Shown: piece by piece, positions 6,147-40,500 of the stretch
How the letters are laid out: every line of letters starts with the position of its first letter
How positions within the stretch are numbered: position 1 is the first letter of the stretch
NCBI GenBank assembly: GCA_022759035.1
Contig: JAEMQD010000012.1
Location: forward strand, 1 to 53,765
DNA from: Thiotrichales bacterium
Lineage (GTDB): Bacteria > Pseudomonadota > Gammaproteobacteria > Thiomicrospirales > Thiomicrospiraceae
Reading direction: 5' to 3'
Length of the DNA: 53,765 bases
Position numbers and translations under genes: made by a program
The notes under the pieces: generated by a model
Told to the model about the DNA's origin: nothing
Databases searched by the model: none
The model's input: only the letters and a program-made list of their open reading frames with translations

Positions 6147-6244
6147 AAAATATTTGTGCAAGGTAGTCGTCTTTTTCTCGACTTGCTGTGATCCCTTGAC
6201 TAAAATTTACCCATAACAATAACTGATAATACGTTAGGCTACTT

Positions 6245-6988
6245 ATGGTAAATCCAATTTCTCTGTTTAACGCAAGTTGTACCGACTGTGGTTTGAAAAA
6301 ACTCTGCTTTCCGCTTGGGTTAGATAAAGGTGATATCTTACGTCTTGATGCGTTAGTAAAACGAAAGCCTGCTTTGCAAAAGGGTGAGGCACTATTTCAC
6401 GTCGGTCAACCCTTTCAAGCCGTCTATGCTGTTCGTGCCGGTGGGTTTAAAGTTTCAACAGTACCCGCGAGTGGCGAAGATAAGATTATCGGTTTCTATT
6501 TGCCTGGTGATATTTTAGGGGTTGATGCACTTTCAACTGGGACGCATGTCTCGACAGCGGTTGCTATTGATACAACGACAGTGTGTGAAATTCCTTTTTC
6601 TGCTTTAGAGCGATTGTCGTTACAAATTCCAAGTTTAAATCATCAATTACTTGCTTTGATGAGTAAAGAGTTAACCGATGAACGGATGCACGCAGAGCTG
6701 TTATCTCGTAAAGGGGCAGAGGAGCGCCTAGCGCTGTTTATTTTGTGGTTGTCGGAGCGGCAATCACGTCGCGGGTTTAATGCGTTAGATTTTCGTTTAG
6801 GCTTGTTGCACAGAGATGTGGCGCTGTATTTGGGGTTAACGCCAGAAACCGTGTCGAGGGTGCTGGCGCGTTTTGCTGAAGATGATATTTTGTCGTGGCG
6901 CAATAAACAATTAAATATTAGTAATCTGCATAAACTACATGCTTTAGCGGGCGTAAATGAAAGTGTGCAACAGTGTTTGCGTGCTTAG
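6245..6988 (+). CDS. fnr: FNR-type oxygen-sensing transcription regulator
   Basis: Crp/Fnr-family regulator that holds an oxygen-labile [4Fe-4S] cluster and activates anaerobic genes. All four cluster ligands are visible: C12, C15 and C21 (CTDCGLKKLC) and C114 in TTVCEIPFS. The cyclic-nucleotide-fold sensor domain spans about residues 30-150. The helix-turn-helix has ETVSR (E201, S204, R205), the residues that read TTGAT half-sites. 247 residues, close to E. coli FNR at 250. Genes 3' of it on the other strand encode a two-component system, and a perfect FNR box lies 33 bp after its stop. A weak FNR-like half-match precedes the gene, but autoregulation cannot be shown. Confidence 0.95.
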   Translation: MVNPISLFNASCTDCGLKKLCFPLGLDKGDILRLDALVKRKPALQKGEALFHVGQPFQAVYAVRAGGFKVSTVPASGEDKIIGFYLPGDILGVDALSTGTHVSTAVAIDTTTVCEIPFSALERLSLQIPSLNHQLLALMSKELTDERMHAELLSRKGAEERLALFILWLSERQSRRGFNALDFRLGLLHRDVALYLGLTPETVSRVLARFAEDDILSWRNKQLNISNLHKLHALAGVNESVQQCLRA

Positions 6989-7020: not shown

Positions 7021-7034
7021 TTGATTGAAATCAA
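7021..7034 (+). promoter_or_regulatory. Perfect FNR-binding site
   Basis: TTGATTGAAATCAA matches the FNR consensus TTGAT-N4-ATCAA at all ten defined positions. It is in the intergenic space between fnr and the convergent response-regulator gene, so it cannot serve either of those genes as a normal promoter element. A -10-like TCAAAT (4 of 6 consensus bases) at 7057-7062 places the box centre at -41.5 relative to a start near 7069, the standard class II FNR activator position. Confidence 0.8.
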
Positions 7035-7068
7035 CTCATTTTTGTCGGGCTTGTGTTCAAATTAGCAC

Positions 7069-7142
7069 TGTGATGGACATGAATGTATTCGTATCCTCCA
7101 TAATGTAGCCCGCTTAGCCCAGCCTTACCGCTGGGCTTTTTT
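7069..7142 (+). ncRNA. Predicted FNR-activated small regulatory RNA
   Basis: A transcript of about 74 nt is predicted from an FNR-dependent start near 7069 to the T-run of a strong terminator ending at 7142. No convincing protein is encoded; the only ATG-led frame is 11 codons without a Shine-Dalgarno sequence. The middle contains ATCCTCCAT, a C-rich stretch complementary to Shine-Dalgarno sequences, of the sort small RNAs use to block translation. FnrS in enterobacteria, AniS/FnrS in Neisseria and PhrS in Pseudomonas are known FNR/ANR-driven small RNAs. I see no clear sequence identity to them, so this is an analogue by architecture. Start and function are inferred. Confidence 0.6.
7116..7142 (+). 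terminator. Rho-independent terminator
   Basis: Perfect 8-bp stem AGCCCAGC/GCTGGGCT around a six-base loop, followed by six T. Oriented for plus-strand transcription. It would end the predicted small RNA and any read-through from fnr. Confidence 0.88.
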
Positions 7143-7151
7143 GTTGTGTGT

Positions 7152-7793
7152 TTATAGCGATAGCTGCTGAATAATTGGAAAGATATCGTCAGATGAGTTG
7201 ACGCCTAATTTGTGATAAATATTCTCGCGATGTTTCGACACGGTTCTGTCTGAAATGCCAAGTTTGTCGGCAATTTGTTTACTGGTTAGATCGTTTAATA
7301 CCAATAATAATATTTCTCTTTCTCGACGTGTTAATGTATGGTTTAGGTGATCTGGGAGGGTTAAATACACGCCAGAGTCTTGTTGAGATAACTCGGCTTG
7401 GATGGCAGGGTCAATAAACATCTTGTTAAGCATGACTTGACGAACACCTTCAACCAGTTCTTCCGAAGCAACGCTTTTAAGGGCAATTCCATTTGCACCT
7501 AGCGCTAATACTTTTTGCCAAGTTTGTTTGATTTGCGTTGCGGTTAACACAATGACGTGTAGTTCGGGATAGGCTTTTTTTAGAATGGGCAATAATTCAC
7601 TGCCAGAAATACCAGGAAGTTGTAAATCGAGAATTAAGACATGCGGTTTTCGATTGACCACCAATTCAAGTGCACTTTTGCCATCGTAGCCAGTACCAAC
7701 GACTTTAAAGTCTTTATATTGGTTAAATAACCCCGACAATGCTTGCGTTACAATGCGATGGTCATCAATAATGGCAATGCGAATTTGTTTCAT
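7152..7793 (-). CDS. NarL/FixJ-family response regulator
   Basis: 213-residue DNA-binding response regulator. The receiver domain has the acidic pair D10-D11, phospho-acceptor D56 in LILDLQLPG, and T84 in VLTAT. A LuxR-type helix-turn-helix lies near residues 148-200 (LTRREREIL, LGISDRTVSKHRENIYHKL). Its ATG overlaps the stop of the upstream hybrid kinase by 4 bp (ATGA), so the two form a cognate pair translated together. Target genes are unknown; closeness to fnr suggests a respiratory or redox signal, which is inference only. It converges on fnr, with the candidate small RNA between them. Confidence 0.9.
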   Translation of the reverse strand: MKQIRIAIIDDHRIVTQALSGLFNQYKDFKVVGTGYDGKSALELVVNRKPHVLILDLQLPGISGSELLPILKKAYPELHVIVLTATQIKQTWQKVLALGANGIALKSVASEELVEGVRQVMLNKMFIDPAIQAELSQQDSGVYLTLPDHLNHTLTRREREILLLVLNDLTSKQIADKLGISDRTVSKHRENIYHKLGVNSSDDIFPIIQQLSL

Positions 7794-9247
7794 TTATAGT
7801 TCCTTTCTTGGCTATAGTGCGTTAGAGCTTGATTCAGTGTGCTTAAGCATTCGTCATGATGCTTAGCGTTTGCATGGTTTTCCAGTTGGTCAAAAATCTG
7901 AATAAAGTCCGCTTGCTGGAAAACCATCGATTGTCCTTTTAGGCGATGTGCTAAACCAGAAAGTGGTGTAAATTGATTGTCGGTTAGGTACTGTTGGCAA
8001 CGAGAGATGCCGTCATATATTTCTTGATAAAACTCTGGCATGAGTGCTTGTAGATAGCTTGGCAATGAATTTCTAGGCGATTCAGAATTGGTTGTTTGAA
8101 CAACGCGAGCGTTTTGTTCATGGGTAAGCGATTGATAACGATTTGCCAAGCTAATGAGCGCGTTAATATTGAGTGGTTTGTTCAGCAGGGCATCAATTGT
8201 GCCGTCGAGTAATGCAGTTTGCAATTCGTTACCAGTGTGTGCCGTGAGCATCACAAGGTGAATAGGCTGTTGTTTGTTATGGCTATGACAATGGCGTAAT
8301 GCTTTAGCCAGAGTTAGCCCGTCCATGTCGGATAGGCGATAATCAATTAAGATAATTGTCGCGTCAATCGTTGAGCATAGCGCAAGGGCTTGCTCACCCG
8401 TTAGAGCGCTATGTACGGTAATAGGCAAGTGTTGCACCATGCCACGAAACACTTGGTGATGAAGTTGATCGTCATCCACTAATAGCACACTCGTGGGCGA
8501 TTGAAGGATGGCCATCGCTTCATTGTTAGTTACGTCTACAACGTTTTCATCGCCTTTGGTTAGTGGTAGCACGATAATAAATTCACAGCCATCATCTGGT
8601 TGGCTATTCACTAAAATTTCACCGTGCATCAACTCAATTAAACGTCGCGTTATCGCTAGACCAATACCCACACCTTGAGGGTTTTTTGTGCTCTCATCGT
8701 GGAAATAGGGCGTAAAAAGTTGTGTTAGTGCATCGGTATTAATGCCAACACCCGTATCTTTTACGCTAATTCTAAGTTTGTTGGCAACTTCGCTGAGATG
8801 AACGTGTACTAATCCTTGCGGCGGTGTAAATTTAATCGCATTGGAGATTAAGTTAATAAGCACTTGTTTTATCTTGCGCTTATCACCATACCAAAAGTGT
8901 GGGCAGTCGTGCGCTATTTCATACTGAATGCATAGCTGTCCAACAATTGCTTGTGGTTGTAGCCCGTTAACGATCAAGCGCACTAAATCATCGATATCCA
9001 CAAGTTCGTGGGCTAGTTTGATTGTTTTTTGATTCAGTTGATCAATATCAATCACATCGTTGATCAGTTCGAGTAAGTGTTGGCCTGCGTGTCGGATATT
9101 GTCTAGCCATTCCGCATCTTGAGGGGTTTTGCAGTTTTCAGACAGCATATGCGTAAAGCCCAAAATGCTATGCATTGGTGCGCGCATATCGTGTGCCAGC
9201 TCCGCGAGATATCGGGAGGTGCTTTCTGTAATCGTAATCTTTTCCAT
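7790..9247 (-). CDS. Cytosolic hybrid histidine kinase with receiver and HPt domains but no sensor domain
   Basis: 485 residues with the whole phosphorelay in one chain: HisKA with H19 (AELAHDMRAPM), HATPase with N136 (NLISNAIKF) and glycine boxes (DTGVGI, GVGIGLAI), a receiver with D302 (IILIDYRLSDMDG), and a C-terminal HPt domain with H434 (LAHRLKG). The HPt would pass phosphate to the LuxR-type regulator encoded next. The protein starts almost directly at the HisKA domain: there is no transmembrane segment, PAS, GAF or HAMP region. The signal must therefore come from a partner protein or through the kinase core itself. No further upstream start would add a domain, because dapD's terminator lies about 80 bp upstream. 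Confidence 0.9.
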   Translation of the reverse strand: MEKITITESTSRYLAELAHDMRAPMHSILGFTHMLSENCKTPQDAEWLDNIRHAGQHLLELINDVIDIDQLNQKTIKLAHELVDIDDLVRLIVNGLQPQAIVGQLCIQYEIAHDCPHFWYGDKRKIKQVLINLISNAIKFTPPQGLVHVHLSEVANKLRISVKDTGVGINTDALTQLFTPYFHDESTKNPQGVGIGLAITRRLIELMHGEILVNSQPDDGCEFIIVLPLTKGDENVVDVTNNEAMAILQSPTSVLLVDDDQLHHQVFRGMVQHLPITVHSALTGEQALALCSTIDATIILIDYRLSDMDGLTLAKALRHCHSHNKQQPIHLVMLTAHTGNELQTALLDGTIDALLNKPLNINALISLANRYQSLTHEQNARVVQTTNSESPRNSLPSYLQALMPEFYQEIYDGISRCQQYLTDNQFTPLSGLAHRLKGQSMVFQQADFIQIFDQLENHANAKHHDECLSTLNQALTHYSQERNYK

Positions 9248-14104: not shown

Positions 14105-14226
14105 CTTGAATCCCCATGTTGGGGGTATTTTATCACTCCACATATATTCCGTCACCGATTACTGGGTGGCCGTAAGGCTTAGTAACTCGGGGAATATAGA
14201 GGCAAAACCCAAGAAAGGAAAATTTC
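14105..14226 (+). promoter_or_regulatory. Structured rpsB 5' leader, probably an S2 autoregulatory RNA
   Basis: The leader folds by eye into a small CCCC/GGGG hairpin near 14112-14125 and a larger domain closed by TATATTCC (14143-14150) pairing with GGAATATA (14191-14198). The domain encloses a GC-containing core, and a purine-rich AAGAAAGGAA ribosome site follows before the ATG. In gammaproteobacteria the rpsB leader is a known target for feedback by ribosomal protein S2. The position and closed multibranch shape fit that; identity with the known RNA family was not tested. Confidence 0.55.
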
Positions 14227-37537: not shown

Positions 37538-40500
37538 AAGGGTTTTTCCAAAATAGGGGAGACGATAATGGGTTGTTTTGGTTTTTTTGTGCGCAGACGA
37601 TTTTTTAATGCTTCTAGGGCTAAAAAGACGACAGGGGTTGTGTATAAGGTCAGCAGTTGGCTAACAACTAATCCGCCGATTAGTGTGATACCTAACGGAC
37701 TACGCAACTCGCTTCCTTCACCAAAACCAATAGCAAGTGGAATAGCGCCTAAAATACCGGCGATTGTGGTCATCATAATGGGGCGTAAACGCACTTGCGC
37801 TGCTGTATAAATAGCCTGTGCGGCGCTTAGATGATGCTGGCGTTGATGTTGCAAGGCAAAGTCGATCATAAGAATGGCGTTTTTCTTAACCAAACCAAGC
37901 AACAAGAAAATGCCAATCAGTGCAATCACGGTTAACTCGTTGTGGGTTAGCTCTAACGCGATAAGACCACCAAGGCCTGCTGTAGGCAGTGTCGATAAAA
38001 TGGTAAGTGGGTGAAGTAGGCTTTCATATAAAATCCCTAAGATAAGATAGAGACAAATAAAGGCACTTAAAATCAGGATTAACTGATTAGATTGTGTCGA
38101 TTGAAAAAGTTTGGCGTTGCCGCCAAAAACAAGTTGTACGTTGCTAGGTAAGGCAAGTTCGGCAATGGCTTCATTAATGGTTTCAATGCCTTTAGCTAAG
38201 CTGACTTTATCAGCTAAGTTAAAGCTTATCGTAAGTGAGGGAAAGCCGCCTTCGTGATTGACGGCGAGCGGAGCGCTGTTTTGTTTTATTTCAGCGAAGC
38301 GTGCTAACGCAATCGCTTGCCCAGTATTGTTAATAACGAATAATTGTTTGAGGCTGTCGGTATTTTTTCTTTCTGCTGCGTCGCTTTCAAGAACAATACG
38401 ATATTGATTGAGTGGTCGGTAAATGGTGCCAATTAGGCGCTGTGCAAAAGCATTATTCAAGGTAGTGTCAATGTCACGCATGGTAATGCCTAATGCTTGC
38501 GCTGCATCTCGATTGATATGCAGATAGGTTTGTGCGCCTTTATCTTGTTGATCAGAATCAACGTCGGTTAATTGTTTTTGTTTTTTTAATGCGCTAACCA
38601 CCTTGGGGGCAATATTTTGTAAAGTCGAAAAATCGTCTGCTTTTAGGCTAAAGCTATATTGTGCTGTGGTGGTGTGTGTTCCCATGCGTAGATCTTGTAC
38701 AGGAACAAGCATGGTTCGCGCGCCAGGTAACTGATTCGTTTTTGGATGTAATCGCGCAATGACCTGATTAACACTAATTTTTCGTTCTGATTTTGGTTTT
38801 AAACTCATAAAAATGACGGCGCTATTGCTGGCACCAAACCCCATAAAGGCGGTTGCACTTTCTACGGCTGGATCAGATTGAATCGTATGTAACAGCGTGT
38901 TGAGCTTATCGCGCATAGATTCAAAAGAAATGTTTTGATCTGCTTGAACTCTGCCCATAATTCGCCCAGTATCTTGTTCTGGCATAAAGCCTTTGGCAAC
39001 ATGAATATATAGACTAATGTTAATGATAATGACGCTTAATAAAAATAAAAGCATGGTTTTAGGGTGGCGTAAACTCCATGCAAGTGAAGCTTTGTAAGCG
39101 CGCTGCCAGCGTGCTCGAGGTGCTTTCTTGGTGAATGTTGTGTGCTGTTGTGTGGCTTTAGGGAGTAGTTTAACCGCTAAGGCAGGGGTAGTGGTTAAGG
39201 CGATCACCATAGAAATGATAACCGCAGCACTCAGCGTAATGGCAAACTCGCTAAATAAGCGACCAATTAACCCGCCCATAAACAGTAAAGGGATAAAAAC
39301 AGCGACGAGCGATAAACTAATCGCGATCACTGTAAAGCTAATTTCTCTGGTGCCGTGTAATGTTGCTTCGCGCGCGTTGTAACCTTGCTCTTGATAGCGC
39401 AAAATGTTTTCTAGGACAACAATACTATCGTCAACCACAAAACTGGTCGCAACAATCAGTGCCATCAGCGACAAATTGTTCAGGCTAAAGTCTAGCCAAT
39501 ACATTAGCGCTAGGGTGCCTAATAATGAAACAGGAATGCTAAATGCAGGAATAAGTGTCACCATCCAGCTGCGTGTGAACAAATAAACGACAAAAATAAC
39601 CAGGATAATGGCGATAATGAGGGTTTCTTTCACCTCAGTTAATGCCGCGCGGACAGTTGGCGTACGGTCAATCGCAACTTGTAAATCAATGCTATTAGGC
39701 ACAAGTTGGCTGAGCATTGGCAAAGCAGCCCGTACACGATCTACCGTGGCAAGCATATTAACCTTGGGTTGGCGATATAAAATAAGGAGTACCGCAGGCT
39801 TGCCATTGCTATAACCAAAGGTGTTGATGTCTTGAAGGGATTCGCTGACATTAGCGACATCGGTTAAACGTAATATGCTGCCATCGGGATTCATACGTAG
39901 AATAAGGTTTTTGTAATCCTCTGGATCGTTGAGTTGTTGATTACTATTTATTTGATAATACTGATCATTGCTTTCAATGATGCCTAACGGACTGAACGTA
40001 TGGCTTTGGTTAACCAGGGTGCGCACGCTATCTAATGAAAGTTGATAGTGATTGAGTGCTTTGCTATCGGCTTGAATACGAATAGCAGGCGAAGCACCAC
40101 CACCAACCACGACTTGACCAACGCCTTCAATCTGCGCAATGCGCTGCGCTAAGATGGTATCTGCTACGTCGTATAGCTGGCCACGCGATAAGGTGTCTGA
40201 TGTTAACGATAACACCATAATCGGCGCATCGGCTGGATTTGCTTTTTTATAGGTAGGGTTGCTGGTCATTCCCGATGGTAGCAGACTTCTAGAAGCTTGA
40301 ATGGCCGACTGAACATCTCTTGCCGCGCCGTCGATATCGCGGTTTAAGTCGAATTGAATGACGACACTTGTTTTTCCTAAAGTGCTGGTAGAGGTAATTT
40401 CGTTGACGCCAGCCAGTTGACCTAAGGTTTTTTCAAGTGGCGTGGCAACGCTCGTAGCCATGACTTCTGGGCTGGCGCCTGCTAAGTTGGCGTTGACAGA

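Follow-up and report, generated by a model that had tools for sequence, protein, structure and literature searches.

The window analysed here is the whole stretch of 53,765 nucleotides at positions 1 to 53,765 of contig JAEMQD010000012.1 from a Thiotrichales bacterium. In this window an fnr gene is followed by an FNR box, a -10 element and a predicted small RNA gene with its own intrinsic terminator (Table 1), and on the far side of the small RNA from fnr lie response regulator and hybrid kinase genes on the minus strand. The fnr product has the cysteines of its Fe-S site as well as an ETVSR recognition helix. The terminator stem pairs AGCCCAGC (7116-7123) with GCTGGGCT (7130-7137) in a perfect 8-bp helix and is followed by six T, ending at 7142, while the stretch that bears CCUCC, ATCCTCCAT, occupies positions 7093-7101. 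A perfect box, a TCAAAT -10, a start near 7069 and a terminator with six T had all been proposed in the original prediction, and each was found where it had been placed. Of note, perfect FNR boxes start at three positions in the window (7021, 9038 and 38548), so that such a box alone is weak evidence and its weight comes from conservation. The second of these boxes (9038-9051) lies inside the hybrid kinase gene at 7790-9247, and the third occupies 38548-38561.

Table 1. Coordinates of the features at the fnr locus of the window.
Feature	Position	Strand	Remarks
Predicted target site GGCTAC-TTATGG	6237..6248	+	Spans the fnr start codon; complementary, apart from one bulge, to CCAUAAUGUAGCC in the small RNA
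fnr	6245..6988	+	NCBIfam NF008365 (Fnr), above cut-off
FNR box TTGATTGAAATCAA	7021..7034	+	Centre 41.5 nt upstream of the predicted start; class II position
Extended -10, TG-T-TCAAAT	7054..7062	+	TG at 7054-7055, TCAAAT at 7057-7062; TGnTnnAAT in most members
Small RNA, ~74 nt	7069..7142	+	Covariance model match of 81 bits
5' hairpin	7070..7102	+	CCUCC in the 3' arm; sequence variable, hairpin kept in most members
Core TAATGTAGCCCGCTT, predicted seed	7101..7115	+	Nearly invariant, single-stranded
Intrinsic terminator	7116..7142	+	Probably common to fnr read-through transcripts

To determine the distribution of the RNA, we derived a covariance model from 19 sequences and counted only full-length matches of at least 39 bits. 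With this model the RNA was found in 30 of the 63 genomes of the order (a single family in the data set used), in one copy per genome and in five of the seven genera, the carriers being Thiomicrospira, Thiomicrorhabdus, Sulfurivirga and relatives. These 30 genomes and one contig from a named record gave 31 loci, and fnr lay directly upstream on the same strand in every one of them, which bears out the adjacency that the original prediction had wished to see checked in relatives by a covariance search. A DNA pattern scan without any promoter constraint also detected the RNA in Thiomicrospira microaerophila, Thiomicrorhabdus marina, Thiomicrorhabdus sp. 6S3-12, Sulfurivirga caldicuralii and several metagenome genomes, and in each true member found in this way a box scoring 9/10 or better was present with unchanged spacing. 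A Paraburkholderia match to the DNA pattern was without an FNR box and was set aside as a chance match. Outside the order, no credible covariance match was obtained among 369 genomes of the class; the matches there reached at most 28 bits, and the best-scoring ones that were inspected were without the core, except for the unrelated L076. A weak match of 28.6 bits (G031:C21:222582-222649), in a genome that has fnr on a different contig, was left out of the count. The contig L040 (JALWKC010000190.1), titled as a Lysobacterales MAG, holds fnr with a Sulfurivirga-type small RNA and is probably mis-binned. In a scan of viral contigs fnr was not found.

Genomes that lack the RNA were of two kinds. 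In three complete or near-complete genomes of genus g5 (G007, G015 and G029) fnr was not matched either, an apparent joint loss of fnr and small RNA. In genera g6 and g3 and in part of g2 fnr is kept with no trace of the RNA downstream, and it is mostly followed by an apparent lipoprotein gene.

The members share one layout, consisting of an FNR box, ~22 bp, a -10 (mostly extended), a hairpin RNA, TAATGTAGCCCGCTT and the terminator. The box agrees at 9-10 of 10 positions and its spacing to the -10 is constant in 31/31, and the -10 and the terminator are likewise kept throughout; loss of the box or of the terminator spacing in relatives, named beforehand as grounds for giving up the prediction, was thus seen in none. 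The most conserved alignment columns are those of the promoter and the core. Because every member has the box and the -10 at constant spacing, the RNA's own promoter appears to be under selection, and with this conservation the existence of the small RNA gene is near certain. FNR probably switches the RNA on as oxygen falls, and on the conserved promoter anatomy the proposal of an FNR-activated small RNA adjoining fnr seems to have been right.

Two simpler accounts of the locus can be weighed against the same data. The RNA might act mainly in cis as the fnr 3' UTR, either cut from a read-through mRNA or pairing through its 3' end with the 5' end. The distance from the fnr stop to the box is indeed only 0-93 nt in all members but one (208 nt, where the stop is possibly mis-assigned), and the window shows no terminator between fnr and the box. 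However, the constant promoter spacing just described speaks against this account, as does the DNA search of relatives, in which matches start at the predicted transcription start and extend through the terminator, the similarity of the closest relative likewise beginning at that start; we consider it very improbable. The other account, a short peptide gene or a plain fnr terminator with a chance FNR box, could draw on an 11-codon frame (MDMNVFVSSIM) that is present in the window and in the Sulfurivirga members, but this frame is stopped or without a start in L002, L003, L005, L008 and L012. No frame is conserved among the members, in line with the initial view that there was no coding frame worth naming, and this account, mainly refuted by the retention of box, core and spacing in 31/31, is scarcely credible.

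With respect to structure, the terminator helix covaries, with six of its eight pairs changed on both sides. Its covariation score was 0.515, versus 0.188 +/- 0.023 for shuffles and at most 0.104 when the helix was slid, a comparison that is favoured by the alignment having been fitted to that helix. The nearly invariant single-stranded core, UAAUGUAGCCCGCUU, lies just 3' of CCUCC. Within it, ATGTAGCCCGCTT is invariant across the 19 aligned members, and small departures from the core occur in L016, L064, L072 and L073. In predicted structures the mean unpaired probability of the core is ~0.65-0.85 over most of its length, and the 5' hairpin is predicted in most members despite sequence change. 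CCUCC, which had been singled out as the pairing element, is absent in L003, L005, L007, L008, L013, L014, L019, L022 and others, and in the window RNA it is predicted to be partly paired within the 5' hairpin. Because it occurs only in some members and is partly paired, a Shine-Dalgarno mimic does not describe the family. By sequence, the RNA has several attributes of a trans-acting small RNA of the Hfq type, namely its own promoter, an intrinsic terminator with a U tract and, on the predicted structures, a conserved unpaired seed. Hfq is encoded in 15/15 genomes tested, and the small RNA is probably bound by it.

The translation start of fnr itself emerged as a candidate target of the core. 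In the window, GGCUAC-UUAUGG covers the fnr start codon and matches the core over only 6+6 nt with a bulge. Other lineages have their matches elsewhere: GGGCUAC at -8 in L019 and L066 and GGGCUA at -8 in L067-L069, AAGCGGGCU at -16 in L004, CGGGCUACAU at +5 in L006 and L040, and GCGGGCU at +3 in L009 and L010. The sites thus lie at -16, -8, +3 or +5 depending on the lineage, with three positions within one genus, and such shifts are expected if pairing, not protein sequence, is what is kept. Between -25 and +15 of fnr, the longest exact complement to the core had a mean length of 5.72 nt in 29 carriers versus 3.67 nt in 18 non-carriers. None of 2000 shuffled cores equalled the real core on the carriers, and the fnr starts of non-carriers were no better than shuffles. 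The match lengths of carriers and non-carriers differed with a Mann-Whitney p of 3e-6, which is not a true probability because the species are related; the shuffled-core test is less affected by this. Predicted duplex energy gave the same picture (-11.4 kcal/mol in carriers versus -7.3 kcal/mol in non-carriers, with 0/500 shuffles as good). Against fnr as the target, no good match to the core was found at the fnr start in about one third of the carriers (for example L002, L014/L015, L022, L024, L032 and L073); in genus g5 the position of the fnr start codon is not certain.

We also ranked fnr among other start regions, in samples of the window's own genome and of one other genome. In the own-genome sample fnr ranked 2nd of 415 start regions with an 18-nt core, 49th with the bare 15-nt core and 15th with a 24-nt core that includes CCUCC, and in the sample of G009 it ranked about 3rd of 365. 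Since these sites overlap either the start codon of fnr or its ribosome site, the small RNA probably represses fnr. The locus had been thought of as a possible feed-forward unit, whereas the complements at the fnr start instead favour negative feedback. Negative feedback is also supported by the three fnr-lacking genomes, which are without the RNA as well. Perfect FNR boxes upstream of fnr were observed in L003, L005, L024 and L101, which suggests direct transcriptional autoregulation in these few species; most species, that of the window included, are without a box before fnr. There is no more than a hint that the distribution of such boxes is complementary to that of the small RNA site.

An alternative is that the FNR-activated RNA acts mainly in trans to repress several mRNAs, of aerobic or other functions, in the manner of FnrS, with the fnr match being minor or secondary. 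It would account for a core that is near-invariant over 15 nt when no more than 6-10 nt are engaged at the fnr site, and for the third of the species without an evident fnr site. The searches for such targets argue against it. Among 75 orthologue pairs from the two genome samples, which covered only about one fifth of the own genome and one fourth of the other, there was no further orthologous gene with a shared site, and exact 10-nt complements of the core were genome-wide no commoner than those of a reversed control pattern; the ones inspected were mostly inside coding sequence. The best own-genome match was fur, with AAGCGGGCT at +24, but this site differs in a congener and is not conserved within the genus, in a comparison that worked in few genomes only, and we rejected fur as a second target. 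The flgB start, originally put forward as a possible pairing partner, came an unremarkable 158th among the ~400 start regions that were scored from the own genome sample. One complement of the core, in L170, is found immediately past the apparent end of a thiamine riboswitch, probably by chance. Taken together, we consider it rather unlikely that repression of several mRNAs is the main role of the RNA. Further mRNA targets are nevertheless likely to exist, since pairing at the fnr site would not require so invariant a core.

Our preferred reading is therefore a stand-alone, FNR-activated small RNA whose core would pair with the fnr start and exert negative feedback on FNR, and we regard it as fairly probable. 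Somewhat more cautiously, and still leaning in its favour, we propose a module of two genes, passed on vertically, in which FNR would activate a co-encoded RNA that represses fnr translation, with the site re-evolving around the start codon.

How this RNA relates to described ones was examined with Rfam, where no family matched; scans of the window and of the locus gave only sub-threshold chance matches here, so the absence of kinship with described small RNA families, as first reported, was upheld. Elsewhere in the window, at 14121-14208, the Rfam t44 RNA (RF00127) was found above the gathering score upstream of an rpsB-like gene. AniS of Neisseria and PhrS of Pseudomonas are FNR/ANR-activated small RNAs whose neighbours and targets differ from the neighbour and predicted target of the fnr-linked RNA, and families of this type gave no match in a permissive Rfam scan of the locus. 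FnrS, the E. coli small RNA reported by Durand and Storz (2010) and represented by Rfam entry RF01796 (frnS), is not directly adjacent to fnr. The RF01796 model gave a match in E. coli and none at our locus or in six genomes of the order. FnrS is activated by FNR, made without oxygen, ended by an intrinsic terminator and active through pairing (see PMC11331407). Here too there are an FNR box (class II, 31/31), an intrinsic terminator and predicted pairing, but the predicted target is fnr itself.

In E. coli, ArcZ is encoded beside the oxygen-regulator gene arcB and represses it, which results in negative feedback; its gene runs antiparallel to arcB and is subject to repression by ArcA (PMC11331407). 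In contrast, the RNA described here is co-directional with fnr and its promoter has an activator site for the product of the neighbouring gene. OppZ and CarZ of Vibrio cholerae are 3' UTR RNAs that are released from the mRNA by RNase E, pair with their own transcript and inhibit translation (PMC7398697). Unlike these RNAs, which depend on RNase E release and have no promoter of their own, the present RNA has a dedicated and conserved FNR-box promoter, and the regulated gene would be the activator itself. By analogy, ArcZ/arcB is the nearest circuit, FnrS the functional analogue for activation, and OppZ and CarZ come closest as 3'-end RNAs that target their own transcript. In text searches that covered mainly open-access papers, we found no small RNA work in the Thiomicrospira group and no small RNAs described downstream of fnr or acting on fnr mRNA. 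The best reading of these comparisons is a new small RNA family tied to fnr, undescribed before and encoded by a stand-alone gene.

In the mechanism that we propose, a drop in oxygen would lead FNR to bind the box at -41.5 and to activate the extended -10, as the conserved promoter anatomy suggests. An RNA of ~65-95 nt would then stop at its own terminator and, according to the predicted structures, form a 5' hairpin and leave a core of 15 nt exposed. As judged from sequence evolution, this core would pair with the start region of fnr mRNA, masking the ribosome site or the start codon, and the pairing would lower FNR synthesis. The net outcome would be a delayed negative feedback by which FNR is capped or its settling sped up. 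Close relatives that have fnr and lack the RNA provide a natural control for the effect of the feedback on the FNR response. If this reading is true, chemolithoautotrophic sulfur oxidisers of oxic-anoxic boundaries have a new family of small RNA, which would provide a compact case of a regulator that limits itself via a neighbouring RNA.
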